From Lepiota brunneoincarnata (lineage: Eukaryota > Basidiomycota > Agaricomycetes > Agaricales > Agaricaceae): DNA of 64,000 bases. The notes beneath the pieces were generated by a model. That model was not told the DNA's origin. It was given only the letters and a program-made list of their open reading frames with translations, and did no database searches. The DNA is taken from NCBI GenBank assembly GCA_023014365.1, contig JAEBUN010000020.1:62001-126000 (forward strand), in the 5' to 3' direction. The position numbers were made by a program, and so were the translations under genes. How positions within the stretch are numbered: position 1 is the first letter of the stretch; each line of letters starts with the position of its first letter. Positions 38,260-61,215 of this stretch are shown here, piece by piece.

Positions 38260-39559
38260 TGAAAAGGTAGCAACGTTTGTAGGTTTTAAATATCGATCGT
38301 GGGCTTGTTTTCACTAAGCTTAGCCGAAGTTCGATAAGCTTAAGCTAATACAAGTGGAACGAGATAGATAATGAACAGTTTCGTCTTTTAGGGTGTTCTG
38401 GGGGTGCGTTCTGACAGCGAAATTCAAGAGAGTAGTGTTTTAGAGGTTAACAAACAGCCGTTGAAGTTATCTTAGCCGTACGGTGCAACAATGAAAGGAC
38501 AATCCCTGTCAATTCAAAGCGCGGGGTCTCTGGTCTCTGGTCTCTGGTTTCTGAACTCTGGTCTCTGTCTCTGTCTCTGTCTCTAGCACTCTGGAACTCT
38601 AAACTCTGAACTCTGGTCTCTGTCTCTGTCTCTGGGTTGGTCGACGACCGAAGAAATCACACTTAACGACGCACACTAAATAGCCCTCTGAAACCGTTCT
38701 TGATCACGGCTTGCAGACTTGCGTGTGGAAGCGGGGGTGAGACCTCTTGCTTCTCCACGAACAAGTGCGACTGTATTTATATTGTTTAGATACATACGAG
38801 AGATAGTAAATATGAAATAGAAAACAATAAGCTTAATTGTTACAGGCACTGTAGAACATTTTGGAAGGTTCGGCAGCATTTCTACCTTGCCCTGGGTTAT
38901 GGGTTTTTCTCTGATTAATGAATGGCAATCCAGCCAGACGTGTTCCGTGCTTGTCTGCATTATTCTGCGTCCATGCGAGCGCGTTAAGACTCCGGATCAA
39001 TTATGATCGGAACGTATAGCGGATGGACAGTCCCTTGATCCGTTGTAATTAATCTCAGTTAAGCAATAGGCCGAGGTGCCGGGACCCACAAAGCACTCGT
39101 TAATTAGGAGTCTTTGACATTTCTAGGGTTTTGGGCATCAGGTGTCGCCTCCCGAACGTTGAACGTTCCGTTCCGTGGTCCGGTCATCATTATTGGGCTC
39201 ACTTTCGACGTAATACTCCTGCGACAGCCGCTAGGTACATTCTTTATATTCAAACGCATCCAGGTTCATCAGAAAACTGCTCGTAAGGTCCCTTGATGCG
39301 ACCGGAGTATACTCGATAGACTATGTAGAGTCCTGAATCCCTCTGGAAAGCGTTCCGATAGTTTGATTCACTAAGCTTAGTCATAATGAACTGGTTTGAA
39401 CACTTCCAAGGCTCGAATATCCTCAATTCGGTCAAACTGGCTACTACGGGACATAGTACCAATCCTCTATAGAGTTCTTTAATGATATAGCCAATGATTC
39501 TATGTAGAGAATCGTTCCGGAGTACAGAATTCATGTATAGGTGTGAAATCGGCGTATCA
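38260..39559 (-). mobile_element. Ty3-A 3' LTR
   Basis: 1300 bases, reads TGATACGCC..CTTTTCA on the minus strand. Differs from the 5' LTR by scattered substitutions and small indels (by eye a few percent). Contains four TAAGCTTA motifs. Confidence 0.85.
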
Positions 39560-39568
39560 TCTCCCCCT
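39560..39568 (-). promoter_or_regulatory. Ty3-A polypurine tract
   Basis: On the minus strand AGGGGGAGA lies directly before the 3' LTR, the expected place for the plus-strand primer of reverse transcription. Confidence 0.75.
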
Positions 39569-39884
39569 AACCAATTGCTGACTGTCCTCAGTCATTATCT
39601 CCTTCAAATTCGCAGAATCTGAGTCTCTCTGATGCGCTCTATGGTCTAGAACGTTCACCAGCTTCGAGGGTAGCGCACTTTTGCTAAGCTTATTCCAAAT
39701 GATGTCATGTCACCGAGTTTAAATGTATAGATCAACTTCTTGTTGCTATAGCTTAAATTTTTATCTCTTTATTGGGTCTTTTAAATGTCCCAAGGCCTCG
39801 TTTCCTCTCTTTCGTTCTCCCTCTCACTCTTTATTCGTTTTATCCTGCTCGCAGATCACTCCTTAACGCCCACTTCTATCAACA

Positions 39885-41924
39885 ATGGACAGAAACACGC
39901 GCAGCAGCAAACGTGCCCGATACGAAGTAGACACGGACTCCTCCTCTGGTGAGTAGAGTTCGTGTTACAATCATCTTTTGTTTTTCCTCACACTGTCCTC
40001 AGACTACGCTGGGCCTAGCACTGCCCCTCCGGCCTCTCAGGACGCGCCCTCTTCGTCGATTGCGCAACGTAAGTCTCTTTTCTCTCGCTCTCATTGTTTT
40101 CCTCATGCTTTCTTTGTCCTTAGGTCTCACTATTCGCCTCCCGGCGCGTCGCAACCTCCTTCCTCAATGGGAACCACCAGCACCACGTGTTAGGAGAGCT
40201 AGAGGAGGGCGAGTGGGACGAGGAGCTCGCGGAAATCGCCAGGGAGGTGTGGATAGGACCCCTCCCCCACCGTACTCGCCGCCCCGCGAACCAACCCCTC
40301 GGCCGGCCACTCCCCTGTCCACTCCTGTGCCGCGACGCGTCATCTCGATCGCGTCACTGTGCAATCCAACTGACAAGCGTTCTGCCGGATTGTCCGCAGA
40401 ACTTTCGTCAGGTATCCCTGTTGGCGGGCCCTCTGGTGGATTATCCACAGAGGCTCCGTCCAGTTCAATGTTGCTGCCCCCTCTCGCCATCTCTCTGCGC
40501 ACCCTGGTCGGTGAAGGCTCGCTGGTGCTCCCTCCCCTGGGTATTGCGTCAGGTTCAGAGGTGCCGGGCCCTTCAACAAACCGCCCCTCCTCTCCTGTAG
40601 CCTCTTCGGCTACTTCTACGTGTAAGCTTAAGCCTTTTTCTGCTTATTTCTCCGCTCCTGCTAATAGTGTGCCTCATAGCTCGTATCCCTGCCGCTCTCA
40701 AAGGCAAGCAACATGCACAGTCATCTGCGCCGCCCCCGTCGCCTCTGTTCCTGGCGAGTTCAAATTCGCCATCGCATTCTCCGGTCCCAGAGGTCTCCCA
40801 AGAAGACCTCTTCAAAATTTTTAACTGGTCCTCTACCCTGGTCGAGCGGAACGCATTGGCCTCTCCCAGGTGTCCTACGCCCTCGCTTCCTTACTTGGCT
40901 TCTGCTTCAGTCGAGTCTCTCCCAAGTCCCGCGGAGGCCTTGCCTTCTCCAGATTTGGAGCTCCTCTTGGAGCCTTCGCCTGTTCCCCAGGAGCCGGCGT
41001 TCGTTTTTCAAGACTCATTCTTAGCTTCTCCAACCCCCGTCCCCTCTCGTTTGCCGAGCCCGGTGGTCCCAGACACATCCCAGTCCTTGCCTCCCCAAGC
41101 CGGACCTTCAGGGTCGCGTCGCGCACGCGTAACCCTACCGAAGAAAAGCTCTAACACGCGCCCAAAGAAATATACTCCCTGGGCGCGCATCCGACGTTCT
41201 GAAGCCGAAATAATCCGGGATCATGGATACCGGCACCCAGTCCCGCTCTTTTGTGAGGACTTTTCTAGGCTGCTGGCAGCTAGCCAGCTTTCGGTATGTT
41301 CTCCAAGTTTTTCTCGTGTTTCCTTATTAACTGTTTTGCCCCTTCCCTAGTACGTGCCGCCTCGGTCTCGGTGCACTACTTGCGCCGCTCGTAAGTTGGA
41401 GTGCGAGCCTCTGGGCAAGGGTAAGAAGTGTCGCAGCTGCGACCTGTACAACTACCCCTGTACCTTCGCAGACCATCCGCGAGTCTCGGCTGGCGTTGCG
41501 AACGCCCTGGTCACGTCCTCACTGACCAGTGAATACCATAAGTTTCTCTGTTCACTGTTTTTCCCATTTATTCACTTTTTATTTCCCAGATCTTGCTGCC
41601 TTCGCATGTGTTGCATCCTCCAGCTTGGTCAGTCTGGAGGCCAATCGTGTTGCCTACGAGGCATCGGCCTTCCACCACCGCCGTGTAATCTACCAGTTCG
41701 TCCAGGAGATGCAAGCTACCAGGACGGCCTTGGACGGTAACGACGTGGCGTTCGTGGAGATGGGTATGGCCGAGTCCCTCGAAGACGTCCAGGCGTTCTT
41801 CGAGTTTGCTGACAACTTTCCGGGGGTCCCGACATACGAAGAATTCAAGGAGCTCAAATCGCTCCTCTTCCTCGCTTTCCCGATGACTCAGGATCCGGAG
41901 TCTGTCTTGGAGGACTTGAACTAG
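39885..41924 (+). CDS. antisense accessory gene X: Zn(II)2Cys6 protein carried by Ty3-A
   Basis: Six exons: 39885-39948, 40003-40068, 40124-40621, 40680-41293, 41351-41528, 41590-41924; introns 54-58 bases; every phase agrees; 584 residues with no lesion. Residues 1-20 are basic and Ser-rich; around 60-85 an Arg/Gly tract; 90-390 a Pro/Ser-rich disordered region; 422-451 a perfect CX2CX6CX8CX2CX6C cluster; 470-584 an acidic, helical C-terminus. That Cys spacing is the GAL4-type binuclear zinc cluster of fungal DNA-binding proteins. Placed antisense to gag-pol, between pol and the 3' LTR, it keeps its introns because the element's genomic RNA carries only their complement. One intron donor (40622) overlaps a TAAGCTTA motif. 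DNA binding and a role for the element are inferences. Confidence 0.82.
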
Positions 41925-42545
41925 TGCCTGCTTCCCTTTCCTCTCTTGAATGTAATATATCCTCTTGTCCTGTATATAGTTACATTTCGCTTAACGATTC
42001 TTGTCTCTTGGTATCTTTCTGAGTTAAGCTTAAGGCCCTTCTGGAATATCCCAAGCTAAGCTAAGGCTTCCAGCCGCTTATACGCTCATCAGATATTTCT
42101 CTGATACTTCTGCTATGTTTATTGACATCTCAGCGCGCCACAATTTGCCATGTGTAGTGAACTGGTCATCCGTTCCAGCTTCATTTACAAGCCCGAACCC
42201 GAACCAGCCTGTACACGGGGTTTGACGCGCCATTTGCGCCACTTGGGGCCCATCTCCCCCTAGCCAAATTGAAATCGGTGCCCTCACCGTTCCATCCGAA
42301 TCCCTGTGCACACTGATAACCGCGAGACCCTGGCGACCTGTTACCCAATAAGGCAACTGTGGTTCAGCTAGTCTGTCGAAGGCTGGCTACTCAAGATTAC
42401 AGGTTTCCTAGGCCTCTCAGGTCATAAGCTTAGGGTGGAGGGTGCTCCTTATCCACTCGTCATGATTCGTCATCACTGCCGACAGCCTTTTCTTATAAAA
42501 GCGAGGGAGCGACGTCTCATTCTAGCAGACACTCTTCGTAAGAAA
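41925..42545. promoter_or_regulatory. intergenic region between antisense genes, with TATA box
   Basis: Holds the terminator of gene X and the promoter of gene Y. TATAAAAG at 42494-42501 lies about 45 bases before the gene Y ATG. Two TAAGCTTA motifs (42025, 42425). No other gene supported. Confidence 0.55.
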
Positions 42546-43735
42546 ATGGCTTCTTCAATCCCCAACCTTCAAGTCGAGCTCGACGATCTCATCAGCAACA
42601 CCAAAGGTCGTCTTCAGCGCCTGCAAAACGGTCAAGTCGCTCGTCCCCTCGTCGAGAAGGCTCTCCTCGCATTCGACGCCCCTGGGGTATGTCTATTCTT
42701 TTCATGCTTCTCTCGCTGTTCCTCAATCATTTCTAGTCTGCTTATATTGAAGCGTTATCGGAGGATAATGAAGCTATCAAGCTTCATGTCAACCAAGACT
42801 ACGTCTTCCGTATTCGCAAGCTCTACGAAATTTACCAAAACAACTACCATTCGTCTTATGAGATGCCCGCGATCTATAAGGCGCTCTCTGAATGCTGTAG
42901 CCGCATTAATCGCGTCTGCTCTGAAGAATCCCACAAAACCCGTACCGAAGAGGCTCAGAACCCGTCGTCCACGACTGGCTCTACTTCCTCCAACATTGCC
43001 GAAGGCTCTGCTGTCCCCAAACGCGTAAGCTTAGCGTTCTTTTGGCTTCAAATCGTCTTCTCATGCATAAGCTTAGCCTCACAAGGGTCGCAAGGCCCCT
43101 ATCTCTGCTGCTGTTGTGGTAGACACCGATACCGAGCCTGCGGAGAGTATGAATAGTGCCTCCAACTCCCGAGCAACTGGTGCTGACACGGTAATCTAGC
43201 TGCTTCTCAACCTATTACATTGGCTGAGATCATCGCTCGCCTTCAGGACATGATGGTCGACGAGGAGGTCTCTCAAGCTATCGTCGAAGAGGTTCGTGTA
43301 GTTCTGCCTTATCGCAAGCGTCGTTTGTCTACCTCCGACGTGGTGCACCAGCTCCACTCCCCCCAACCACTGATTCTGACTTCCTCTCTCTCTAGGAGAC
43401 TGTCAAAAAGTCCTCATCGTCTAAAGGCTCTGTCCGTCTTCTTCCCTATTGTCAAGTTCCCAATATGAACACTAAACACTGCTGTTATGTCCGGGCTGAA
43501 CAGGTTCTAGCCAAAGCCAGCGCCAATACTGCCAAACGCGCCCGTACCGAGTCTGCTTCTGATGAGCGCACCTTCGCAGGCTTATCCGGTGGGCAATTTC
43601 TCACTTCTGTTCGTTAAGCTTAGCGGTTCTGACACTTTTCCCGGGCAGCTCGTTTGCTCCAGGAACTCCAAAACCTCCTGTCTCACTCTCGCGACGAGTA
43701 CGAGTCTGAATCTCGCAGTGACGATGCTCGGTCTG

Positions 43736-44433
43736 TGTTATGATCCGTGCTCCTTCTGTATCCGAGGATAACTGGAGACGGCCTTCAATCACTCTACAAG
43801 GTGTCCGAGACGGTTGGCCTTATAGAGCTTAGTGGATCGCGCTCAATGAGATAACGAGGGAAGACGCCAAGTTAAGGCAGAGAGGTAAACGACCGCTGTT
43901 AACAAGATTAAAGCTTAAGGCTTTAATCTCTACTTGTACAGGCCTTATATACCTATGAGGTGCTATATACTCGTTATAGGTTACTTGGCTGTTCTACTGG
44001 TCGTGCGCAGTCCTGACCATGATGCACATCCTGGCTGATGGCATCCTAGCGTTATTTATATTACAATGAGTCAGTACTCTCGCTACTGCTGTGCGATGTT
44101 CCATCGCTTTCCTCTGACTCATAATCTCCTTCTCCCGATTGTATCTCCATGGAGTCCTCTCCGTTCTCGCTCTCCATTCTCTCGGTGCTTCCATCCGTAT
44201 CGGAGGTTGGATCGGTTGATCCATGGTTATCTTCCTCGTCCTCGGGGTATTCCAATATATCCTCCAAGGTTATCTCCATTCCTGCTTCTCTCGCCAGGTC
44301 CTGCATGGCGGTGTAATATTCCCCTTCTTCGTCTTCGTATTCTTGTGCCCGTAGTTGGTCTGTAGTCTCCTGTACCCATCTTGTAAAGTCGAACAGTAGT
44401 TCTTGTTCCTCCCGGTCTGGACTGTTCATAACA
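43736..44433 (-). mobile_element. Ty3-B 3' LTR
   Basis: 698 bases. Its inner part encodes, on the minus strand, the acidic C-terminal end of the overlapping ORF that begins at 45632. TATATAAGG on the minus strand near 43945. Confidence 0.9.
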
Positions 44434-45632
44434 TTATCCCCTTCGTAAGGTCTGATGTCCTCATCAGACGTATCCTCAGTATAATCTGACAGGCTCTCCT
44501 GTAATGTTTGATTCGGCGATGGGGTCCCAGTCGAAGTATGGGTCGGGTTCTGGGGAGTCGCTTCGGTAGCTTGGTGGTCTGGGGATGGCGGGTCTTGGGT
44601 GAGGTCGATGACGATGGGTTCTCTGGAGTGAATGGTGGCGGGTGTGCTGAAGGATTGATTCAGGAAGTCGGTGGCTTCCGCTAGCAGATGTGGTGGTGGC
44701 GTTGGTGGTCGGAATGACGACGGGGGCATTTTGAATTCGGGTGCGGAGGGGTCTGGCTGAAGCGGGGCGCTGCTCGGTGCTTGCAACAATGTGTCGAATA
44801 TTGTTGTTTGTGGTTTCGCGTGTGAGGGATCGAGCTCTGCTTGGTATTCCTCGTGGGCGGCGATACAGGCCAGGTACCATACTTGCGGGTTGATGCTGGT
44901 AAGGGTTTCTCTCGCAGTGCTTCTCGTAATGGCCTGGGGCAATCTTTCGACAATATCGACATTGGTAGCGCGGGCATCCTGCTTTGATATGGCCGAATCG
45001 ACGGCAGCAATTGCAGCGAGTTCGGGTGGTGGATAAGTGAGTGGTGGTAGTCCCGATGGGGGCGTCATTAGAAGCAGATATAGCTTGTACAACACTTGAT
45101 GGTTGGTTACTCGTATCCACCATGGGAGGGTTGGAAGGTTGGGTGGTGGTCCCGATAGGTAGGATAGGGCGGTCCTGACTTCCGCTTCCATTGCTCGGGC
45201 TTGGGATCGTACTCTCGAACGGGAATTTGGTGAGAGCGGTTGATAGCATGGCAGAAATGGTATTGCGGTCCTGTTCCTCTGTTGCGCTAGAAAGAATAGT
45301 GGCGCATAGTTTTTCGAATTCTGTTGCTCGGTCGTGGACGAGGCGCTTGTGATACAGAAGAGCAGTAAATGTCTTCCAGCAGGTGTCGACCAGGGGTACC
45401 ATCGCTGGACTGCGTTTAAGACGGGTTCCGGTAATATGAAAGGGAACTTCGTGTAAAAGGATGGATCGTATCTCGGGTTGGTTGGAGGGAAGGAAGGTAT
45501 GCCGGATGATATAAGGACTGTTGGTCCTGTCTGGTTGGTTGTCAGCGGTATCGGTGGCAGGGTTAGGTTGGCTATTTCCTTCGACGCGGTTCGCCAGGGA
45601 TATGATTCTTTCCTGGATGAGAAGGCGTCCAT
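44061..45632 (-). CDS. Ty3-B overlapping 3' ORF, Pro-rich then acidic
   Basis: An uninterrupted 523-codon frame that overlaps the zinc-knuckle ORF in another frame and continues 373 bases into the 3' LTR. Its second half looks protein-like: NPQVWYLACIAAHEEYQ, EPIVIDLTQD, then a long Asp/Glu/Ser-rich tail. Its first half is less convincing. Probably the true product starts in the zinc-knuckle frame and ends in this one, so a one-base error or a programmed frameshift lies near 44,900. The same tail frame is open in the 5' LTR (51980-51612). Confidence 0.45.
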   Translation of the reverse strand: MDAFSSRKESYPWRTASKEIANLTLPPIPLTTNQTGPTVLISSGIPSFPPTNPRYDPSFYTKFPFILPEPVLNAVQRWYPWSTPAGRHLLLFCITSASSTTEQQNSKNYAPLFFLAQQRNRTAIPFLPCYQPLSPNSRSRVRSQARAMEAEVRTALSYLSGPPPNLPTLPWWIRVTNHQVLYKLYLLLMTPPSGLPPLTYPPPELAAIAAVDSAISKQDARATNVDIVERLPQAITRSTARETLTSINPQVWYLACIAAHEEYQAELDPSHAKPQTTIFDTLLQAPSSAPLQPDPSAPEFKMPPSSFRPPTPPPHLLAEATDFLNQSFSTPATIHSREPIVIDLTQDPPSPDHQATEATPQNPTHTSTGTPSPNQTLQESLSDYTEDTSDEDIRPYEGDNVMNSPDREEQELLFDFTRWVQETTDQLRAQEYEDEEGEYYTAMQDLAREAGMEITLEDILEYPEDEEDNHGSTDPTSDTDGSTERMESENGEDSMEIQSGEGDYESEESDGTSHSSSESTDSL

Positions 45633-45690
45633 CGTTGTCTGGCTCTGGGAGGTCTGGAGTGGTTGCTCGAGTGTTGGGTGGTTGGGTCAT
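44476..45690 (-). CDS. Ty3-B extra ORF with two zinc knuckles
   Basis: 404 codons from ATG 45690, overlapping the end of the integrase frame by 119 bases. Residues about 225-265 hold CNCCRRFGHIKAGC (CX2CX4HX4C) followed by CRYCRKIAPGHYEKHC (CX2CX6HX4C). Zinc knuckles bind nucleic acid and normally sit in Gag, which this element also has (CX2CX4HX4C in its own gag). The N-terminal 200 residues look like a structured, Gag-like or unknown domain; the region after the knuckles reads poorly in this frame. A third ORF downstream of integrase is unusual for a chromovirus. Confidence 0.6.
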   Translation of the reverse strand: MTQPPNTRATTPDLPEPDNDGRLLIQERIISLANRVEGNSQPNPATDTADNQPDRTNSPYIIRHTFLPSNQPEIRSILLHEVPFHITGTRLKRSPAMVPLVDTCWKTFTALLYHKRLVHDRATEFEKLCATILSSATEEQDRNTISAMLSTALTKFPFESTIPSPSNGSGSQDRPILPIGTTTQPSNPPMVDTSNQPSSVVQAISASNDAPIGTTTTHLSTTRTRCNCCRRFGHIKAGCPRYQCRYCRKIAPGHYEKHCERNPYQHQPASMVPGLYRRPRGIPSRARSLTRETTNNNIRHIVASTEQRPASARPLRTRIQNAPVVIPTTNATTTSASGSHRLPESILQHTRHHSLQRTHRHRPHPRPAIPRPPSYRSDSPEPDPYFDWDPIAESNITGEPVRLY

Positions 45691-48600
45691 TGGTGGGGTT
45701 GTCTAGTTTGTGGGCCCTTTTATATTCTTCAATGACTTCCTTGGCGTTCTCCAGGTTTGCTTCTGGCTCCCAGGAATCCTCAGTAGGAAGGTATCCTTTC
45801 CATCTGACTAGGAATTGATACTTGTTCCGGAATTTTCTGTGGCGCAGTATTGACTCGACCTCGTATTCTTCTTCTCCATTTACAAGGTCGGGTGGTGGGG
45901 CTGTGTTGTATTCCCCATGTGTGTCGTTCTCTTCTGCAGGCATTAGGAGGCTCGCATGAAACTTGTTGTGGATCTTCCATTTGATGGGTAATTTTAGTTC
46001 ATAGGTTACAGGTCCGAGTTTTCTTGTTATGGTGAAGGGACCTTCTCGGCGTTGGGCCAGTTTCTTTGAGGCGTACTGAATTGGGAGGTTGCGGTTGTCG
46101 AGCCAAACCTTCTGTCCAACTTTTAGATTGATATCTGGCCGGTTATATCTTGCAGCCATTTTTAGTCTGGCTTGTTCATGCGCAGCTTGGGCTTCTTGGC
46201 GTATCTTGGCGAGGTATTTAAACTTCTCTCCTATTGCTGGAATGTTCGTTGGCTCCTCGGAGGTCGGAAATCCTTTGGGGCTTGATCCATAGAGGAGTTC
46301 AAATGGGGTATGTTGGTGTTCGGCATGTGTTTTCGAGTTGTGGACGTATTCCAGGAGTGGGAGTGCCTTTACCCATTTGTTCGGGTTCGATGAGCAATAG
46401 ATGCCAAGGTAGAGTTCTATTTCTTGATTGAATCGCTCTGTTTGTCCGTCTGTCTGGGGGTGGTAGGCGGTAGAGAGTGCTTGTTCGATTCCGAGTTGTT
46501 TGTAGAATTCTTTCATGGATTTGGCAGCGAATCTGGGGTCGCGATCACTGAGAACTTTCTCGGGAAGGCCAAATCTAGAGAATAGCCGTTTGATAAGAAT
46601 TTCGGCGATCTTGTCCGCGTTGGCGGTTTTCGCAGTAGGTTCTAGAATTATCCCCTTCGTAAGCTGGTCGACCACGACCAGTATAGAATCATGGGGTCCG
46701 TCCGGGGGTAGGTCTGTGATAAGATCCATCGAGATGTTCGAGAATGGACGGGTAGAACGGGGTCCAGGGATAGGTTGAAGCGGTGGTTTTAGGGGGTGGC
46801 GATTGATCTTGTATTGTTGGCAAGCGCCACATCCTTTGACGTAGTTTTTGACAAATGATCGCATCCCGGGCCAGTAGGCGTATTCCTGGAGTTTTCTAGT
46901 TGTTTCTGCGATTCCAGGGTGTCCTGCGGTGGGTGAGTCGTGTACTCTTTGCAGTAAGCGGCGTCTGAGGTGTAAATCTTGTGGTATAAATAGTTTTCCT
47001 TGAACACGTGGGTGTCCTGAGTCGTCTTCTTGGGCGATGTCGGTCTGTTTCTTTTTCTTCCACAGCTCTTTTATTTCCTGTTTAGTATTTTCGTCGATAA
47101 TATGGATATGTTGTGGCTGTTTTGGGGTGAAGAATTTGTCAGGGAGTGCAACGACCTGTTTGTTGTCTCTTGTCTTGGGTTCATGATCGGGTCGTCTGGA
47201 AAGGGCATCTGCTGGTCCATTTTTCTTTCCAGGGATATGTCGGATTTCGATGTCAAATCGTTGCATGTAGGCAATCCATTCGGGCTTGTCTTCTGCTGAG
47301 GTCTTCAGGGTTTTCTCCAGCGGCGAAGGTTGTCGTGATCTGACCATACGATGGTCTTGTGTGATGATCCTTCTATGTGGTGGCGCCATTCTTTGAGTGC
47401 TCGGATAATGGCGAAGAGTTCCTGTTCGGAGCAATGATAGTTGCGTTCGGCTGGTGAGAATCCTTTCGAGAAGTATGCGACTGGGTGTTTAACTCCATTG
47501 TTGTCGCGTTGAAGTAGGACTGCTCCTGATGCAAATAGTGATGCGTCGCATTCGATTTCGAAGGGTTTGTCTCGGTCGGGGACCATTAATACCGGTTCGC
47601 TTTGGAATTTCCTCTTGAGAGTATCGAAGGCGTTCTGGCATTCTTCTGTCCATTCGAATTTCTTGGTTTTGGACATTAGGGCATTGAGAGGTTTTGCCCA
47701 TGTGGCGTATTGGTGTATGAATTTTCGATAGAAGTTGCAAAATCCTATGAATTTTCGTACGTCGCGCGGGGTAGTTGGTGTTGGCCATTCAGCGATGCCT
47801 TTGAGCTTTGCTGGGTCCATCGAAACTGAGTCGGGAGTGATAATAACTCCTAGATATTCGAGTCGTTGTCGTTCGAATTCGCATTTCTCGGTTTTGAGGT
47901 ATAGATCGTTGTCCTTGAGTATCTTGAGTACTTCTCTTGTGAGGCGTCGAAGTTCTTGTTTTGTTTTTGCGTGAATGAGGATGTCGTCCATGTAAACGAT
48001 TACTCCTCCATTGTCGATGAGTTTTCGGAATAATGAGTCCATCATGGTTTGGAATGTTGCTGGGGAGTTACACATTCCAAAGAACATAACCGTGGGTTCG
48101 AATAATCCTCGGGGTGTCCTGAAGGCTCCTTTCCATTCATCTCCTTTGCGTATGCGGATGTTGTTGTATCCTGCTCGTACGTCGAGTTTGGTAAAGTACT
48201 TTGATCCTCGGAGTTTGTCGAGAATATGAGAGATGAGGGGGAGGTTGTATGCATTTTTGACGGTATGCTCGTTGAGGTACCTGTAGTCTTGACAGGGGCG
48301 TAGTTTTCCGTCTTTCTTTCCTACGAAGAAGAAAGGTGATGCCATTGGCGATTCGGATGGTCGAATGTATCCCTTTTGAAGGTTTTCTTCTAGGAACGTA
48401 GTCGAGTTCCTTTTCTTCATTGAGGGAGAGTCGGTAGGACTTCATGGCAATTGGTTTGAATGATTCCTTGAGTTCAATTTTGTGATCCCATGGTCGTTGT
48501 GGGGGGAATCGTTCGGCTTGTTTCTTGCTAAATACTGGGAGGTATTCGTGGAATTCCGTGGGTACGACTTTTCTTGGGTCGTCGTTTTTCTTTTCTCCGT

Positions 48601-49231: not shown

Positions 49232-49233
49232 CC

Positions 49234-50358: not shown

Positions 50359-51286
50359 ATTGTTAATGTCAGAGGTTGTGGATTCCTCGTCGGAAGTGTG
50401 AATAGACCCGGTAGTGGGGCTAACTTCGGATGGTTCGGATTGTACAGGGGAACTGGATCGAGGCGGTGAGTGTACCGGTGATCCAAGTGGTGATGTGAGG
50501 GGTGAGAATGTTCTTGGGGGTTTCTGTTGCGAAGTGTTGTCGCTAGTTCTTGTACTTGTTGAGGGTTGAGGACCGGAGGATGGGGTAGATGTTCTATGAA
50601 TCGGCTCCCCGAGCTTTGAGCGGGTAGAGGTGGCAGTTCTTTCAGGTGGTGGTTGTTTAGGTAGGGATTGAAGAACTGATGCTGGGGGTGCTGGGTATCC
50701 TGGGTCTTCTGTTCGACGTTGAACTCTCTCGGTAGGTTGTGTAGGGTACGGTGCGGAACCAGAGGGTGAACGAGTGAGGGGTATAGGTTTTGTTTTCTTT
50801 TTAGGGTCCGTGGTGGAGGGGGTGTGAAGTCGGGTTCGGAGTCGGTTGTCGACCAGTCAGAACTTGTTGGATTCTTCGTAGTCGGTGGCAAGGGGGTCGT
50901 TTCGGTTTGTAGACAGGGTGAAGAGGGAAGAAGTCGAAGGTGAAGGTGAGGGTGAATAAACAACGCTTGCGGGTGCGTTATCCCAATCGACGCTTGAAGG
51001 TGTGGATGACCTGTATACAACGCTTACGGGTGCGTTATCCCAATCAACACTTAAAGGTGTGGATGACCTATCAACGCTTTCGGTGCGTCTGACCAAGGGT
51101 GCAGAGGGTATGGTGGCCTGCTCTACGGGGGTGTATCACCGGACAGCGACAAGGCGTGTCGTCAGATACGGTTGGCACTCGGATAGCGATAAAGCGTATC
51201 GTCTGCCGGTGTGGAAGGGTAGCGACAAGGCGTACCGATACCACGGGGTGTACGATGGAGGTTGTCCAAAGGAAGCTTTAATCTAA
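50359..51286 (-). other. Ty3-B 5' leader with short tandem repeats
   Basis: 928 bases between PBS and gag. Around 50960-51090 a unit of about 57 bases (ACAACGCTT.. GGGTGCGTTATCCCAATC ..GTGTGGATGACCT) is repeated twice and a bit; a second motif, GCGACAAGGCGT / GCGATAAAGCGT, recurs at 51145-51235. A Pro/His-rich frame (51020 leftward) is open here but lacks an ATG and has no recognisable domain. Confidence 0.6.
51273..51284 (-). promoter_or_regulatory. Ty3-B self-complementary primer-binding site
   Basis: Minus strand, two bases after the 5' LTR: AGATTAAAGCTT. Its exact complement, AAGCTTTAATCT, lies inside the LTR at 51467-51456, about 30 bases downstream of a TATA box, that is, at the expected 5' end of the transcript. 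This is the arrangement of self-priming (Tf1/sushi-type) elements rather than tRNA priming. No TGG-type tRNA site is present at this position. Confidence 0.7.
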
Positions 51287-51984
51287 TGTTATGATCCGTG
51301 CTCCTTCTGTATCCGAGGATAACTGGAGACGGCCTTCAATCACTCTACAAGGTGTCCGAGACGGTTGGCCTTATAGAGCTTAGTGGATCGCGCTCAATGA
51401 GATAACGAGGGAAGACGCCAAGTTAAGGCAGAGAGGTAAACGACCGCTGTTAACAAGATTAAAGCTTAGGGCTTTAATCTCTACTTGTACAGGCCTTATA
51501 TACCTATGAGGTGCTATATACTCGTTATAGGTTACTTGGCTGTTCTACTGGTCGTGCGCAGTCCTGACCATGATGCACATCCTGGCTGATGGCATCCTAG
51601 CGTTATTTATATTACAATGAGTCAGTACTCTCGCTACTGCTGTGCGATGTTCCATCGCTTTCCTCTGACTCATAATCTCCTTCTCCCGATTGTATCTCCA
51701 TGGAGTCCTCTCCGTTCTCGCTCTCCATTCTCTCGGTGCTTCCATCCGTATCGGAGGTTGGATCGGTTGATCCATGGTTATCTTCCTCGTCCTCGGGGTA
51801 TTCCAATATATCCTCCAAGGTTATCTCCATTCCTGCTTCTCTCGCCAGGTCCTGCATGGCGGTGTAATATTCCCCTTCTTCGTCTTTGTATTCTTGTGCC
51901 CGTAGTTGGTCTGTAGTCTCCTGTACCCATCTTGTAAAGTCGAACAGTAGTTCTTGTTCCTCCCGGTCTGGACTGTTCATAACA
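51287..51984 (-). mobile_element. Ty3-B 5' LTR
   Basis: 698 bases, TGTTATGA..TCATAACA (either strand shows the inverted ends), carrying the promoter for the minus-strand element. Confidence 0.9.
51496..51502 (-). promoter_or_regulatory. Ty3-B TATA box
   Basis: TATATAAGG on the minus strand; 29-35 bases downstream lies AAGCTTTAATCT, the proposed transcript start and primer. Confidence 0.65.
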
Positions 51985-52224
51985 GTCTGTCAAATGCGAC
52001 CTCAATTCGCTCAGCCGGGACTTCATCGAGGCTATTCCCTCGCTCGAAGCTAACTTAAAGAGGTTCCAATTCCTCATTCAAGAGCGCATCCGTCTCAAAA
52101 GTCTTTTGCGCAACCTCTCCGACTTGGACAAGCCCCTCCCCACTTAAGCTTAACGCTTTTACAGTCCCTAGGATAGTTTTCCGTCGATAAGTAGATAGTT
52201 CTGTCCACAATATCAGGTTTTTTT

Positions 52225-55200
52225 CTATCCTTCCAACTCTTCCGGCTCCCATCTGTCACTAGGCTCATCCTCAGTAGTCTCCTCCAGGGTCTTCAGTCCC
52301 TCTGGCGACAGATCTATCAACTCTTGTAATTCCGGCGGCAACGGTATATGTTTCCTGGCTAAGTAGGGAATTACTCTGAACACCGCCACTTTATTCTGCC
52401 ATACCGAACCATCCAACTCTGCCAGGATATAAGATCCTCCCTTTGATCTAGATATGACCACCATGGGTCCTAGATACCTGGGTTTCATCTTCCTGTCTGC
52501 TGAGCTCTCTATAGCTGTATTTCTCACTAATACTAAATCTCCCGCGCCGAAGCGATAGTCTTTTATCTTATGCGCTGCTTGCCGTTCCATTTCCCAAGCC
52601 TTGCTAAGCTTAGTGTCTGAAACACGCTGACGCATCTCCTCAACATGCCGAACATGTTTTGCCAAAGCCTGAGCTCGATATCCTATCAACTCGGCCGTGG
52701 TCAAGTACTTATTCGGTAGCTGCACCAGCCAAGTGGCCTCTTTGACATCCAAAGGTAGCGTCGGGTGCGCTCCAGTTACCAAAAAGTACGGGGAACACCC
52801 CATTCCTTTTCTAATGGTGATCCGATCTGCCCACATAACGTGCGGTAGGTGCCAATACCACTTTTTGACGTCTCCATCTGTAGCTTTGTACAACATTTGT
52901 CGCACATCCCAGTGGGGTCGCTCAATAATCCCGTTCGCTTTGGAATTGTAAGGAGATATCGTTACTCCCTTTATCCCATATTTTTCTTCCAGCCATCGAA
53001 CAGCTTTCTTAAATGGAGAACCGTTGTCCGTGACAATCTTCACTATACAGCCCCATCGGCAAATGATATCTTCGAATAACCACTGCGCGATCGAACTGGC
53101 GTTCTCTTTTCTCAACGCTTTTGCCTCCATCCAAGATGACAGTCCACACCTTCCATGCACAATATAACTACACCCATTAGAACTTGGCGTCATATGTAGT
53201 GTGTCCACATGTAGCACTTGGAATATCGACGGCGTGGGCGTTACTATTGGCGGCGTCTCGATGATCACCTTTTGCCGTTGCTGGCATAGATGGCACGATT
53301 GCACATACCAAGCTACGTCTCCTTCAACTTCCGGCCACCAGAACCTCTGCGTTATAAGCTTAGTGGTTGCGTATATTCCTCTGTGTCCTAGGAAGTCGTG
53401 GCTGGCTCGCAACATATACATACGTTGCTCCTTATCCACTACTAGCTGATGCTGACCGCTAGGACTCGTCCTATACAGCCTCCCCTCTTTATCCAAGAAG
53501 AAATGCTCTACCATATGCTTAAGCTTACGCAGATCTGGCTCATCCAAGCCTTCAGCTGCGCTACTGCCCCCTGTTTTCAGGTATTCCCTGACTTTGGGTA
53601 TCCTTTCATCTTGTATTCGTGCTGTATCTGTCCTGCGCGACTCATCATATGTTTCCTCTATCTTGGCCGACTTTTCCTCTTCGAAATCTGGCACTAGCCT
53701 GACATCCGTCATTAAGCTTAGTACTTGTCGATGGTTTTCTGGACAGGCTGGGTCTTCTATAACCCTTAGCTTAGCCTGTTGTTCATCCAAGTACTCTTCC
53801 CGGGCTTGATCCAGCTCATACTCAAAATCATACACATCACGCGCCAGACCCTGGTTGAAGCCAGAGCGACTGTCGATCTCATCGCAGAAGGCTTCCAAGG
53901 GTAAAGGATCTGCGGCCCCTGGATCTTCTTTGATCAGTTCGAACTCCTCTCCTTCATCCTCGGATCCATCATCGAAGCGACGGGCTGTCTCATCACCGGG
54001 ATAGTAGCGTCGCCTGGACAGTCCGTCCGGTCCAAAGTTCTTCCCTTCTTTGTGTACTAGCGTGAAGTGGAATGACCTAATGAAGTCCACCCAGCGGTTT
54101 ACTGTGGCGTTCGGGAGCTTCCCTGGGTTGTTTAACATCCCAAAGAGAAACTTCGCATCCGTCTCCACCACTAAGTTTCTTGATCCCCACAGTAAATATT
54201 TCTCTTGTTCCAGCACCATTCTTAAGCCACATAGCTCTCGCTTGGGCTGAGAGTATCTCTGCTGTCTTTCATCCAATAATATTGACCCAAACTTCACATA
54301 ATGTATAAGCTTAGCGTCTTCTCCATCTCTCTGATATATGTAGTATCCCACCACCCTCCATGAGGTATCCACGGCTACTACTATGGGTTGTTTACTCGGA
54401 AATTCGGGGTTCCTGGTCGGGAAACAGCGCTGAATCGCATCTTTCAGCTCCTGCTGCGCTTTCCGTTCGTTTTCTCCCCACTCAAACTCTTGCCCTTTTT
54501 TAAGCTTTTCGTACAGAGGTGCCGCTATGGCTATGAACTTTGGGATATGATTCCTGCAGCGCGTAGCTGTTCCTAGAAAACCCCTTAGCTCGGAGACATT
54601 CTCGCAATCCCCCCATCTTAATATCTTCCCAATGGTGTCTGTAGCAGGCAACCGTCCTTTATATGAGCATTCAAAACCCACCATGGTGATTTCATCAGCG
54701 CAGATAGTCGTCTTGGGCCCAGAGAAGGTCCCTCCTACATATTTCATCCTCTGTAGAATCCTATTGACGGTCTGCATGTGTTCCCATACAAATCTTCGGA
54801 TCCCTGGGTTCTCTTTCAACGTCTCTTCCGTGCCATCTGGCAACTCATATCTAGTTTTTGGCCCTCTGATAGGTACATCATCTATGTACGGCATCGTGTA
54901 TTCTGGTATCTCACTGGCTAGGATCGCTGTTACATCCTCATGGAATATAGGCACTGAGTTGGTCCATCCCATGGGTAATGTCACTAAGCGTAGCGCTCCA
55001 AAAGGCGTCTGGAACGTTGTTAAGTCCCGAGACGACTCAGCTAACAGTCGCTCGTCATAGCCAACATATAGATCCAGAATGCCTCCGCAAGCTCTGCCTG
55101 CGAAGTGCATCGCCAAATCTTCCGTTGCTGGCGGCAGTCCTGAATGCGCTATCATCACTCTGTTCAGCGGCTCCAAGCTGTGTACCAGTCTCAAACTTTT

Positions 55201-55743
55201 CCCATCTTTCTTCACCACACAGAACCATCGGGATCTATAGGATGAGTTCGACGGCTCGTATACACCAGCACTAATCTTTCTCTTTATAATGGCACAGACT
55301 TCATCATAGATCGCTGGTGGAATCGGAATGGGCTTCTCCACCCACGGAGTATGTTCTACCGTCGGTATCTCGATCAGCGGGAAGAAGTCTTCCCTAAAAC
55401 ATCCCCTCTCCTCATCTGTCCATGCGAATGCCCTTTCTTGAAGCATCATGACTTGGTGCATCAGCTTTCTTTCTTCTGGCCACAAGAAATCCCCTGCATG
55501 GGCTTCATCCAGCTTAAGCTTGCGCTCCTCCGTATATCTGCCTGTCAGGACAAACTCTGGAGGATGCATGCTAAGCTTAGGCATTTCTGCCAGCGGATCC
55601 CCTTTTATTTCTCGTTTTATCCTGAATTTCTCTGGTAAATCACCTAACACTGGCCTCACTTTTAAAGCGACTGGTTTATATTTCTTCCCAGCCAGGCATT
55701 GTACAATATCTTTGTCATCCCCTTCAGTTTTGAAGACAGTCAT
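52225..55743 (-). CDS. Ty3-A pol: reverse transcriptase, RNaseH, integrase
   Basis: 1172 codons without interruption. RT: residues 172-300 with [23 protein letters not shown] and catalytic YIDD (286-289). RNaseH: D459 (VAVDTSW), E503 (PKRELCGL), D529 (ETDAKF). Integrase: zinc site H782/H787/C817/C820 and D847, D906 (TDNGSP), E941 (NGIIERPH). The C-terminus ends in an acidic tail; no chromodomain is evident. The same frame continues upstream to about 55985 but is closed there by a TGA (55843-55841) where CGA would fit, and by a frameshift to the protease frame, so this catalytic part can no longer be made as a full polyprotein. The coding strand contains nine TAAGCTTA sites. Confidence 0.9.
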
Positions 55744-55970
55744 TCCCTGACCCTCCGTATCCTGTGCGTTGGCGATGCGCCCTAGGCACGATAACGCCGT
55801 TGCTCTATCTTCCTGTGGGCAGTCCTCATCGCGTATGACTCAGTCAATGAACATTAGCTGTAGCTCGGCCTCTGAGAAGCTTCCTTTTGCTAAGCTTAGT
55901 GTTTGTGCGACGACAGGGCCCTTCTCATCATCATAGTCTATTATACAAGCCACCTCTCCTTGTCCCTCAG

Positions 55971-57104
55971 TCAACTCATCGAGGTTTCTTGAAAATTTTG
56001 ACTGTTTTCCCTAAGCTTAGGAGGATTACACTCTCCTCGAGCATAAGTTGGTAACACAGCCCGTTCTCTGGTATTTGGGTCCGTAATAACTAAGGTTTGC
56101 TCGCCACTGGCGCTATTCCTGACTTCGCTAGCCGTCATTACATCAAAGGGTCGTCCCAAGAGTACTCGATACGCGGGGTTACGAACGATGTGAACTTGCA
56201 AATAGATTGTGACTCCCCCGCAGGTAAAGCCTACGTTCTTTGCCAGTCCACAAGTCTTTTCAACCTGCCCATTCGCACTCTGCAAATTTATTGTAGTATC
56301 TGGATCCCAAGAAACTTGACATGCAATCGCCGCTTCCTGACTCATGGAGACGATCTGTGACCCGCTATCTAGCAAGGCCTCTTCCTGCTGAATCCCATTT
56401 ATCAGAGTTGGCACTACTCTCAACGGCTCGCATTCTTTCGCAATAAACACTTGCCGTCCCCTGTCTCTTCGAGGAAGTGACTCCAAGTACTGCATGATTG
56501 GATCCTGCGCTACCCAGGCTTGGGTTGCCGAGCCTTCTCGGAGCACTGTATCATACTTCCGAGTGCCGTCTGCTAACTCCGTTATCATGACTTGTACTGG
56601 CCCACTATTAATCTCTATATCTTCTGTATCATCGTCCCAGGGCCCTACTCCTGCTATTAAGCTTTGACTCGTGGGTACCCGTTTTCTCATAATGCGCTCC
56701 CTATAAGCGTTCCTGTATATCGGTGACAATGCCAAGAGTTCTCCATGCGATACTGAGGCTTCTCGCTTCAATACCCTGCTGAGTACTTCCTCTACATCGA
56801 CACTCCTCTCTATAGGGGCCTGGTGCTTATACGTGGGCTCCTTCTTAGATGGTTCCATCCTTCTGACAGGCAACGGTGGCACCTCAACGACCGGGCGCAG
56901 TGGTTTCACATTTCTATATGGTAATTCCCCTGCTGCGGCACGCACTGGTTCCTCCGTTGTCTGCCCTATTTCCTCATTTTCTGATTCTTCTGATCGCTCG
57001 GAATCCGACGCGTCCTCAGGAGTCTGTCCTCTGGCGAAGGCGACCTTCTTCTTCAGAGCCGGCTCCTTCCTCGAACCCTTTAGAAACCCGACTCCGAGTT
57101 CCAA
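55971..57104 (-). pseudogene. Ty3-A linker and retropepsin-type protease
   Basis: Open frame that begins inside the gag C-terminus in a shifted frame. The first 110 residues are charged (FLKGSRKEPALKKKVAFAR, then Glu/Ser-rich). The protease part has ALLDSGSQIVSMS (catalytic DSG) and RVLLGRPFDV near its end. It joins gag through a one-base shift near 57190 and pol through another near 55990. No ATG is in place at its left edge, confirming it was translated as part of a polyprotein. Confidence 0.75.
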
Positions 57105-57553
57105 GTCTTCGCGCCACTCCTGGTGTCCAAATACTGGCTTGCCGAGGGCGTACCATCCGTCAGACCACTAAGCTTAGCCTGTATCTGGGCCAATTGCTCG
57201 GCCAAAGACTGTATCTCGACGTTATCATCCTTTCTTGTCATAAGCTTAACCTTTGGGGTACTCCTAGCGTGGATGGCAGCTGTCTCCAACATTTCCATGC
57301 GCTGCTTCAGACGGCGGATTTCTTCTTCCGCTGGCGACCTTTGGTTTTCTGACCTCGGGAACGCTCTCTGTGCAAACACCGCTGACGTTGGTACTTGCGG
57401 TAACTCAGGCTCAACCTCCGGCAGTTCTGGTATCTGAACGAAGAGTTGTCCCTTTGTCGCATAGTACTTTGCCACTTTCTCTTTAATAGGCCCTTCTCCT
57501 CGAGGGATACTCGAGCCGTCTCCCATATATATTTTGTTCCCTTCGACTCTAAT
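57080..57553 (-). pseudogene. Ty3-A gag C-terminal part, after a stop codon
   Basis: Same frame as gag beyond the TGA at 57556-57554. Starts IRVEGNKIYMGDGS and continues through a coiled-coil-like segment (EEEIRRLKQRMEMLE, SLAEQLAQIQAKL). Ends by a frameshift near 57190. Contains two TAAGCTTA motifs (57179, 57241). Confidence 0.7.
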
Positions 57554-58561
57554 TCAGCCGGCTTGTTTATCCGCCTCCATGTCCAGGCAGAATAACCAAC
57601 TATGCCCTAATAACCAGCAGTAGAAACACTTGCGATCGGAAAGCGACCCTGCCGGCCCACTTCCGGTATTCCTCTGGGCGTGATTATAACCGGCATGATT
57701 ATGTCCGTCCTTCGCCGAGCTCTCTAAATATGTTTTTAAGGTATGCCCCTGGATATTCATGAGGTCCTTAAGCTCAGCGAGGCCACCTGCCATCTGCGAG
57801 ACTTCATCCTGAAATTTCTGCTTTAAGCTTTGCAGTTCTCGCTTTACCACCGGGTCATAAGTCCCTGTTCCGGACGTCGCAGGTGGATGGCTCATCGATG
57901 CCGAGTTTACCGGCCTCAAATCCTGATGAAGGGATCGCATAAGTGTTTTGCCAATCGAAATTTCGACAGCTTTATCCACGACAATCCTCCAATCATAGGG
58001 GTCCTCTTCGCGTAAATCCTTTGCAGTCAGTGCCGACCCATCACTTGCGGTTCTACGCGCCCCGGTGATCGCTAATCTCGCATTGAGCACATCCTGGAAC
58101 ACCGAGTCCAGTGCGCTCGTAAATAACTCGACTAGCTCTCGGTTCGAGACTACCGCCGGCGACTTTAGACACTTCTCTGCTTCGAGAATGAATCGCCTTT
58201 TAAAGTCCAAGACTTTATGCTCCTCATTCATCGCAATGCCTCTACTCTCTGCGCAGAGTTCCCTCAAGCGTCGCACTGAGCCCTGCTCGGCTGCCACAGC
58301 CTCGGGATACTCTTTCTTTAATCTCTCTACGAAGCCTGTCCAGCTTCCTGCTAAGAACTCCGCAAAACTCATCCACTCTTCATGGATATCCTGGTCCACA
58401 TATAACACCGCCCAATTTATTCTTTCTGCCTCGTCCGTCGTCTTCGTTATCGTGAAGAGACGTTCCAGCGTCCAGAGATAATTTCTCAATGTCTGTGGTT
58501 TTGATGCATCCCACCTGGGAGCATTATTGCTAAAGGGAATTGGCATACGCTCGTGTCCCAT
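57554..58561 (-). pseudogene. Ty3-A gag N-terminal part
   Basis: From ATG 58561: MPIPFSNNAPRWDASKP, then a helical capsid-like domain (LRNYLWTLERLF, FVERLKKEYPEA), a coiled-coil stretch (LQSLKQKFQDEV) and a zinc knuckle CFYCWLLGHSWLFC just before TGA at 57556-57554. The frame is open further upstream to about 59097 without an ATG, giving a Lys/Ser/Pro-rich stretch that may be an untranslated leader or an alternatively initiated N-terminus. The TGA separates the knuckle from the rest of Gag; readthrough is possible but a mutation is likelier. Confidence 0.75.
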
Positions 58562-59107
58562 TTTTCTAGCTGTAGTCGTCGTCGACGGCGTAGTTTGGTT
58601 TGTCTGTACAGTCGGAGTTGACTGTGATATCTGTGGTACCGTGGGGGCACCAAAAGGGTTTGTATGAAACGAGTTTTGGTTTGGTAACGCTAAGCTTAGC
58701 GTAGGAACGGTCTGACCGTCCTGGTTTTCGGTGTGCAGAATATGCGCTATGTTGCGAGCTGAGGCTGGAAGCCTTATAGTAATTCTGGGAGCAGTAGAGA
58801 TCGGCGGTACGGCTTTTCTCAATACTGCAACTGCTGAACCACTCGCTGTGTTCGCAGCTAAAGCGCTAACGGGATCTTTTCGCTTTCGAGAGGTACTAGC
58901 GGCGATGAGGCCTTCAGAACCTTCTGGACGATTGGAGTTCCGAGTAGTTCTCTGTTTTGGTGGGTCGACCTTCCTGAGACTGCTCTCGAAGGACGTTTTG
59001 GGTGACTTTACAGTCTTTGCTTGAACCTTTTTCTGCTTCGCAGGTGAAAGGCGGGCCAGTGTCCAAGTCTTTTGGTGTTTGTCTCGTGAAATTCAACTGA
59101 AAACCCC

Positions 59108-59124
59108 CCTTGCGGTGGGCTCCA
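59108..59124 (-). promoter_or_regulatory. Ty3-A primer-binding site (tRNA type)
   Basis: TGGAGCCCACCGCAAGG on the minus strand, two bases after the 5' LTR end. The TGG start matches the CCA end of a tRNA. A near copy (TGGAGCCCACTGCAAGG) sits next to the LTR at 63061, so two families share this primer. Which tRNA is not determined. Confidence 0.7.
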
Positions 59125-59126
59125 GA

Positions 59127-60411
59127 TGAAAAGGTAGAAACGTTCGTATGTTTTAATATGGATAGTGGGCTTGTTTTCACTAAGCTTAGCCGAAATTCGA
59201 TAAGCTTAAGCTAATACAAGTGGAATGAGATAGATAAGAAACAGTTTCGTCTTTTAGGGTGTTCTGGGGGTGCGTTCTGACAGCGAAATTCAAGAGAGTA
59301 GTGTTTTAGAGGTTAACGAACAGCCGTTGAAGTTATCTTAGCCGTACGGTGCAACAATGAAAGGACAATCCCTGTCAATTCAAAGCGTGGGGTCTCTAGT
59401 CTCTGGTCTCTGGTCTCTGTCTCTGTCTCTGTCTCTAGCACTCTGGAACTCTAAACTCTGAACTCTGGTCTCTGTCTCTGTCTCTGGGTTGGTCGACGAC
59501 CGAAGAATTCACACTTAACGACGCACACTAAATAGCCCTCTGAAACCGTTCTTGATTATGGCTCGCAGACTTGCGTGTGGAAGCGGGGGTGAGACCTCTT
59601 GCTTCTCCACGAACAAGTGCGACCGTATTTATATTGTTTAGATACATACGAGAGATAGTAAATATGAAATAGAAAACAATAAGCTTAATTGTTACAGGCA
59701 CTGTAGAACATTTTGGAAGGTTCGGCAGCATTTCTACCTTGCCCTGGGTTATGGGTTTTTCTCTGATTAATGAATGGCAATCCAGCCAGACGTGTTTCGT
59801 GCTTGTCTGCATTATTCTGCGTCCACGCGAGCGCGTTAAGACTCTGGATCAATTATGATCGGAATGTATAGCGGATGGACAGTCCCTTGATCCGTTGTAA
59901 TTAATCTCAGTTAAGCAATAGGCCGAGGTGCCGGGACCCACAAAGCACTCGTTAATTAGGAGTCTTTGATATTTCTAGGGTTTTGGGCATCAGGTGTCGC
60001 CTCCCGAACGTTGAACGTTCCGTTCCGTGGTCCGGTCATCATTATTGGGCTCGCTTTCGACGTAATACTCCTGCGACAGCCGCTAGGTACATTCTTTATA
60101 TTCAAACGCATCCAGGTTCATCAGAAAACTGCTCGTAAGGTCCCTTGATGCGACTGGAGTATACTCGATAGACTATGTAGAGTCCTGAATCCCTCTGGAA
60201 AGCGTTCCGACAGTTTGGTTCACTAAGCTTAGTGATAATGAACTGGTTTGAACACTTCCAAGGCTCGAATATCCTCAATTCGGTCGAACTGGCTACTACG
60301 GGACATAGTACCAATCCTCTATAGAGTTCTTTAATGATATAGCCAATGATTCTATGTAGAGAATCGTTCCGGAGTACGGAATTCATGTATAGACGTGAAA
60401 TCGGCGTATCA
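59127..60411 (-). mobile_element. Ty3-A 5' LTR
   Basis: 1285 bases, TGATACGCC..CTTTTCA on the minus strand; TATAAATA at 59635-59628; microsatellite of GTCTCTG units downstream of it; four TAAGCTTA motifs. Confidence 0.87.
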
Positions 60412-61136: not shown

Positions 61137-61215
61137 ACTGGCGATAGGGCTGGGGACAGGGTAGATGGGGTGCAGAGAGCTAGGGTGGCAAGTCCGCGTA
61201 GAGACCTGAATATTC

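Follow-up and report, generated by a model that had tools for sequence, protein, structure and literature searches.

A Ty3-type retrotransposon of Lepiota brunneoincarnata with two spliced antisense genes and a dense array of an exact palindrome

The window, a 64,000-nucleotide stretch of contig JAEBUN010000020.1 from the basidiomycete Lepiota brunneoincarnata, contains a long terminal repeat (LTR) retrotransposon, designated Ty3-A, whose gag-pol is accompanied by two spliced genes in antisense orientation, X and Y, and by an array of the palindrome TAAGCTTA. Ty3-A is a Ty3-type (Metaviridae), non-chromodomain element. As the initial annotation had proposed, LTRs, a stretch resembling a primer-binding site (PBS) and a polypurine tract enclose gag-pol on the minus strand and X and Y on the plus strand (Table 1). 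In the 1204-amino-acid pol open reading frame (ORF), Pfam matched RNase H-like and integrase zinc-binding domains, and neither the reverse transcriptase (RT) model nor the integrase core model; a YIDD motif seen by eye marks what we take to be the RT. Unlike the nested element described below, the pol ORF had no Chromo match in Pfam, so Ty3-A is not placed among the chromoviruses. Among the listed pol relatives, P0087 bears PF00078, and P0009 and P0108 bear PF00665. The 512-amino-acid gag-like ORF had no Pfam match. A protein search with pol returned Agaricus bisporus proteins at 68 to 69%, and no IMG/VR contig matched any of six peptide patterns taken from pol. Alignment of the two LTRs of the window copy over 1285 bases shows 31 differences and a gap of 15 bases. 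Stop-to-stop gag frames of 670 to 708 amino acids in seven other copies, and pol frames of up to 1261 amino acids elsewhere, indicate that the window copy is partly decayed, in agreement with the earlier view that gag-protease had degenerated while X, stop-free over 584 amino acids, had not.

The introns of X are all GT-AG. Exon 5 (41351-41528) encodes a Zn2Cys6-like motif with the spacing C-x2-C-x6-C-x8-C-x2-C-x6-C, the match being based on the spacing rule for fungal Zn2Cys6 clusters, and the six cysteines are kept in all nine distinct exon-5 sequences, one of which (L033) has a stop. Modeling of the last exon with nine sequences gave a 45-residue helix plus shorter ones, with a mean predicted local distance difference test score (pLDDT) of 75.9 in the best of five models and 51.0 in the worst. 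From the zinc cluster followed by a long helix, we infer that X is a dimeric Zn2Cys6-type DNA-binding protein. Sequence searches of the PDB yielded two chance-level matches with X and nothing with Y, and a PDB fold search with X exon 6 returned nothing at E ≤ 0.001. Y has six exons in the present model, or seven if one additional 72-base in-phase stretch is an intron. The six in-phase exons first proposed for X therefore stand; the seven proposed for Y are one of two counts, and in the window Y is broken by a chromovirus inserted within its last exon. The insertion point is marked by a 5-bp target-site duplication (TSD), GTCTG (43731-43735 and 51985-51989). Med28 and MAM1 were considered as identities for Y and rejected, with Pfam scores far under the cut-off.

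Across the 95 contigs (55.6 Mb) of the host genome, the X region is present in at least 20 copies at 97 to 100%, that of the window included, and in at least 20 more at 80 to 81%. Seven of the ten other loci fetched (C17, C79, C60, C6, C36, C16 and C1) have the order LTR, X, Y, pol, gag, LTR, with X and Y antisense, uninterrupted and between pol and the 3' LTR; C1 has a deletion in the left LTR plus adjoining DNA. In the other three, a chromovirus copy splits the left LTR of C12, C40 is truncated by the end of its contig, and C69 carries an insertion near 42031, its far end lying outside the stretch followed. Exact 4-bp TSDs flank six of the eight two-ended copies (gcga, ccgc, acgc, ccgc, acgt and tcgc), and a one-base mismatch is present in C6 (gcgc/gcgg) and in the window copy, whose own flanks gave no exact match (acgg/ccgg; 38256-38259/60412-60415). 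The LTR pairs differ by 1 to 7 bases in six copies and by 18 in C6, C1 being compared over 955 bases. The duplications have the form NCGN, with CG central on both sides in all eight two-ended copies of subfamily A (that of C17) and on the visible side of three one-ended A copies; in subfamily B, L029 (ccgg) fits NCGN on its visible side and L028 (gcat) does not. It looks as though the family integrates at CpG.

A survey of pol scored 150 loci out of 773 candidates, 125 of them at ≥85% identity. At 99 of these 125, an antisense X lies on the 3' side within 25 kb; 26 are without X in that position, some of them at contig ends. Across all identity bins there are 105 antisense 3' X-pol pairs, of which 57 are spaced 4.14 to 4.33 kb and 17 are spaced 10.5 to 13.1 kb, as if another element lay between them, as in the window; seven are more than 15 kb apart and may join different copies. 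The 17 wide pairs exceed the usual 4.3 kb by ~6 to 9 kb, which looks as if insertion of other elements between X and pol were frequent; the window copy and C69 carry their insertions at two different points. Rare layouts comprise six same-strand X-pol pairs within 9 kb and four on the 5' side. X exon 6 has 149 matches including fragments; 129 were used in pairing, the 20 weakest (short fragments) being left out, and 104 of the 129 have such a pol in the scored list. The shared antisense position in full-length copies and at most pol loci, together with the exact TSDs, bears out the initial proposal that X and Y are genes of the element. The check proposed with it, for copies lacking X and Y while these are ordinary host genes elsewhere, had a mixed outcome, since most copies carry X, and on the other side stand the 26 loci without X in that place and two X-like genes outside the element.

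These two X-like genes, which weigh partly against element membership, lie near contig ends (L034, at C35:354000-362500, and C60:120807), are at 61% in the last exon and have all six cysteines. By eye, the introns of the L034 gene are at matching places, and the repeated DNA around it recurs on C35, C60 and the end of C69. It is possible that the stand-alone gene is the donor of X or a domesticated gene.

X and Y evolve under purifying selection, with ratios of nonsynonymous to synonymous substitution rates (dN/dS) of 0.15 to 0.17 between A and B. Between C17 (A) and C46 (B), the ratio is 0.147 for X, with exon deletions of 3 and 6 bases, and 0.160 for Y, with zero indels; between C17 and C7 (B), it is 0.173 for X, which has a 43-base deletion in C7, and 0.172 for Y. 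All 10 intron borders of X and Y are GT-AG in both B copies. Copies made through RNA retain the introns of both genes, which fits introns lying opposite to the genomic RNA strand and is what the first explanation of their persistence, antisense placement, had led one to expect. The diverged copies L031 to L033 have dN/dS of 0.19 to 0.28 for X and 0.30 to 0.56 for Y, keep splice sites at zero or one of five X introns and one or two of five Y introns, and in part contain frame-breaking indels, a pattern that fits decayed copies. Synonymous divergence (dS) between A and B is 0.51 to 0.58 for X and 0.15 to 0.17 for Y, a difference of ~3-fold in the same copy pairs. This inequality points to different histories of the two genes; possibly, the X segment was exchanged by recombination between families.

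Copy C17 contains 24 occurrences of the palindrome TAAGCTTA over 12,598 bases (its internal part plus one LTR), against 0.2 predicted from trinucleotide content. The palindrome ranks first among all 8-mers by likelihood ratio, and none of its one-mismatch neighbors exceeds three occurrences. The flanks of the sites are mutually unlike, and the sites are therefore not copies of a longer repeat. In control DNA, TAAGCTTA numbered zero in the 8.2-kb nested chromovirus, one in 32.6 kb of flanks and two in the initial 31.8 kb of the window; the 8.5 kb surrounding the stand-alone X-like gene had none, nor had L036, and in L035 the palindrome is present solely within an inserted A-type LTR. Genome-wide, TAAGCTTA was counted 5370 times versus 842 for the reversed pattern, and 94 of the first 100 listed sites have another within 2 kb.

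Four of the sites in C17 are in the LTR, eight are around or inside the introns of X and Y, and 12 are in the gag-protease-pol frames. Within these frames, 9 of the 14 Lys-Leu pairs are spelled exactly T-AAG-CTT-A (0.02 to 0.04 expected). Eleven related pol proteins were compared at five of the nine places: most of them have residues other than Lys-Leu at four places, and 7 of the 11 share Lys-Leu at the fifth. This suggests that TAAGCTTA in gag-pol is under selection at the DNA level. Each of two B copies kept 12 of 13 sites, versus 52 to 55% for all 8-mers. Sites kept inside the compared stretch of the diverged copies numbered six of six in L031 (two sites lie beyond the blastn match), seven of eight in L032 (five are outside or at the edge) and six of seven in L033; L030, with an element match of 1.6 kb and one site, was left out of this comparison.

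Table 1. Features of Ty3-A and of the element nested within it (window coordinates)
Feature	Position	Strand	Remarks
Ty3-A, whole element	38260-60411	gag-pol on -, X and Y on +	LTR borders of the initial annotation are exact
3' LTR (relative to gag-pol)	38260-39559	-	4 TAAGCTTA sites; TG...CA ends
Polypurine tract	39560-39571	-	reads TCTCCCCCTAAC on +; by eye
TAAGCTTA site upstream of X	39685-39692
Gene X	39885-41924	+	584 amino acids, 6 exons, predicted splice model
X exons	39885-39948, 40003-40068, 40124-40621, 40680-41293, 41351-41528, 41590-41924	+
TAAGCTTA site on X intron 3 donor	40623-40630		GTAAGCTTA
TAAGCTTA site downstream of X	42025-42032
TAAGCTTA site upstream of Y	42425-42432
Gene Y	42546-52147	+	~360 amino acids, interrupted in window copy
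Y exons	42546-42686, 42737-43024, 43077-43146, 43200-43342, 43396-43588, 43649-43735, 51985-52147	+	mapped from uninterrupted copy L011; last segment beyond nested element
TAAGCTTA site on Y intron 2 donor	43026-43033
TAAGCTTA site on Y intron 2 acceptor	43068-43075
TAAGCTTA site within Y intron 5	43615-43622
Nested chromovirus	43736-51984	-	chromodomain Ty3; 698-bp LTRs 99.7% identical
TAAGCTTA site at Y stop codon	52145-52152		bases 1 to 3 form the stop codon
pol ORF (RT, RNase H, integrase)	52225-55839	-	1204 amino acids
Other TAAGCTTA sites	52605, 53355, 53520, 53713, 54306, 55572, 55891, 56012, 57169, 57241, 58691
Protease ORF	55971-57167	-	398 amino acids, aspartyl protease match
gag-like ORF	57554-59092	-	512 amino acids
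PBS-like stretch	59108-59124	-	complement CCTTGCGGTGGGCTCCA; adjoins 59127; by eye
5' LTR (relative to gag-pol)	59127-60411	-	4 TAAGCTTA sites; TG...CA ends

The nested chromovirus has two extra ORFs of 541 and 408 amino acids (within 44061-45702) after pol and on its own strand; neither has a Pfam match, and the 408-amino-acid ORF shows a Cys/His cluster by eye. Beside Ty3-A, a KH-domain ORF (PF00013) on the minus strand (60412-61217) is cut by the insertion. A solo LTR of the Ty3-A family lies in opposite orientation at 31784-33091, with CCGT on both sides, and a second, truncated one at ~61552-62835.

A more distant family, E, has the same arrangement. Among the matches listed in a search with Y exon 2 were seven distant loci at 30 to 34%, and at one of these seven, the family E locus L037 (C17:777500-787499), pol is ~70% identical and is accompanied by an antisense Y-like gene (Y') and, further on, an X-like gene (X'). 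The last part of this X' aligns with X exon 6 at 33% over 61 residues (E = 5e-6), and five cysteines are seen by eye at the place of the zinc cluster; X' is present at 10 loci, at 73 to 100%. Thus, while pol is ~70% identical between the families, X and Y are at 30 to 34% in alignable parts, which indicates a far higher rate of evolution in the antisense genes than in pol and an old origin of the antisense module. The sister family, the broken Y and the TAAGCTTA array did not figure in the initial annotation. Loci with pol at 64 to 71% were at first taken to be X-less (X found at one of eight), a count overturned by the diverged X' and Y'. In the family with pol at 54 to 55%, an X of the type searched for was found at none of eight loci, a more diverged X being beyond the reach of the search. 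One stretch with a 55% pol, L036, has an Spt5-like gene (NGN and KOW motifs; 2145-4361) 3' of and antisense to pol; of its 16 genomic matches, none falls on a contig that carries one of the other seven copies with pol at 54 to 55%.

Ty3-A copies lose CpG. From C17 to C79, 19 of 392 CpGs were converted to TG or CA, and the corresponding change (C to T or G to A) affected 0 of 2345 positions with C or G outside CpG; from C17 to C46 (B), it is 88 of 391 CpGs and 172 of 2327 other positions. In the three diverged copies, 70 to 74% of CpGs have turned to TG or CA and the observed/expected CpG ratio is 0.17 to 0.37; in young copies the ratio is ~1.0. Such loss is the mark of methylation-driven decay or of decay like repeat-induced point mutation. 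The host thus seems to attack the family at CpG, which would be a reason for a counter-measure without demonstrating one.

The reading that we favor, tentatively and at a little short of an even chance, is that X, perhaps with Y, binds TAAGCTTA, marks the element's own copies and activates or unsilences them in the manner of VANC. As a dimeric zinc-cluster protein, X would bind TAAGCTTA in the LTRs, in its own introns and in gag-pol, alone or with Y; binding would lead to recognition of copies of its own family and hence to their activation or unsilencing. An exact palindrome would be an apt target for a dimeric DNA-binding protein, and from this we infer the step from X to TAAGCTTA. Attack by the host at CpG would favor such self-recognition, and antisense placement would allow the regulators to keep introns and a promoter of their own while the genomic RNA remains unspliced. 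A fuller version, in which the product of an antisense spliced zinc-cluster gene binds an exact 8-base palindrome written by the element itself into LTRs, introns and coding DNA alike, and only the element's own copies escape CpG silencing, at a cost in amino acids and codons, is doubtful.

The model for this reading is VANC of the Arabidopsis VANDAL elements, an element-encoded protein whose short motif abounds in its own family and is rare in other elements (PMC5735166, PMC10398659). These papers describe motifs in introns of the elements' own genes and silencing by host methylation of DNA, and TAAGCTTA shares this skewed distribution between its own family and other DNA. VANDAL elements differ in being DNA transposons with the motif mainly in noncoding tandem repeats, and binding and demethylation have been demonstrated for VANC, whereas for X binding of the motif is a proposal.

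Several observations weigh against binding of TAAGCTTA by X. The usual CGG-type site of Zn2Cys6 proteins differs from TAAGCTTA. X resembles fungal Zn2Cys6 factors in its cysteine spacing and in the predicted helix after the cluster, yet its Pfam score for Zn_clus is below the cut-off of 21 bits (17.1 for the exon-5 frame and 13.6 for whole X). In fungal factors the cluster is usually N-terminal and binds CGG half-sites, whereas in X it lies towards the C terminus and CGG half-sites are absent. Neither residues 370 to 584 of X nor the Y protein found a relative among 5.8 billion proteins in a search that requires shared 5-residue words, so that no second species lends support. Half of the 24 sites are in gag-pol coding DNA, unlike the mainly noncoding targets of VANC, and no exon of X or Y contains a complete site, compared with 4.9 predicted from the density in gag-pol (P = 0.008). 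When the background is restricted to 8-mers of equal G+C content (59% kept in B), the excess of kept sites is modest (P ~0.01) because TAAGCTTA has no CpG; the same background is 39% in L031 and 43% in L033, and since CpG decay spares TAAGCTTA, the kept sites in L031, L032 and L033 are weak evidence. Family E has no TAAGCTTA in L037 or L038 and, in the one 10-kb and one 5-kb stretch covered, where the LTR is partial, no comparably dense 8-mer or spaced pair, and hence no different motif of its own as in related VANC-type families. This counts against a general rule linking array and module and shows that the array is either dispensable for the module or a later invention in one lineage.

The same sites could serve the opposite purpose. 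If X limited or repressed its own family through TAAGCTTA as copy-number control, the binding logic would be equal to that of activation, the sites that flank X and Y, lie in their introns or include the Y stop codon would have the layout of an autoregulatory circuit, and in a family as large as this one (149 X exon-6 matches, fragments included) dosage control would pay. A repressor needs few promoter sites and not sites throughout gag-pol, and we regard repression as quite unlikely, even though activation and repression cannot be told apart at the level of sequence. Slightly less improbable, though still unlikely, is that TAAGCTTA is read on the genomic RNA (UAAGCUUA) by Gag or integrase, or by a host protein, and that X and Y have an unrelated job. 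The sites span the whole genomic RNA, coding parts included, RNA pairing or packaging could make use of a self-complementary 8-mer, and in family E X' and Y' are present with no array. However, every array in the DNA examined belongs to a subfamily with X and Y, an exact palindrome fits a dimeric DNA-binding protein, and 24 sites exceed the usual need of a packaging signal.

Two further explanations are very improbable. Host passenger genes, captured once and without function for the element, would account for the stand-alone X-like genes near contig ends, with their six cysteines, matching introns and similar last exon, but not for the low dN/dS of both genes between A and B or for the retention of antisense X and Y in two families despite divergence to 30 to 34%. 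An origin of the array by mutation or gene conversion rather than selection seems just as remote: having no CpG, TAAGCTTA escapes CpG decay, which inflates its apparent conservation in diverged copies, but the same array is present in young copies with a CpG ratio of ~1.0, the flanks of the sites are unshared, the Lys-Leu codons are biased, and other elements in the same genome have no array.

The initial annotation regarded a fungal element with two intron-bearing antisense genes, one of them a zinc-cluster protein, as undescribed. An antisense gene in a fungal element is not in itself new: the Botrytis element Boty reportedly has one, brtn, from work by Zhao in 2011. Later papers cite brtn as an antisense gene of Boty (BcGypsy1) of Botrytis cinerea (PMC7264820; PMC8365987), and in the text available Boty is likewise a fungal element with an additional antisense gene, one rather than the two found here. 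Antisense genes are also known in plant LTR elements, and those of Retand and Grande have the same place and orientation as X and Y; the Retand proteins are predicted to bind DNA, and the Grande protein is nuclear (PMC7264820, PMC11963269). As far as the available text goes, these elements differ in their plant hosts and in their proteins, the Retand paper contains the word "intron" zero times, and in Retand tandem repeats are found there in about half of the elements studied, with no exact dispersed palindrome mentioned. Among the literature matches listed, in a search that left subscription papers mostly outside, there was no fungal element with two spliced antisense genes, an antisense zinc cluster or a dispersed exact palindrome.

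The role of antisense genes for LTR retrotransposons is described as still open (PMC7264820, section 7). Here, X is an antisense gene that resembles a DNA-binding protein and comes with an exact, abundant candidate target site that seems to be selected at the DNA level. If an anti-silencing role is true, a fungal retrotransposon would have evolved independently a strategy known from the VANDAL DNA transposons of plants.

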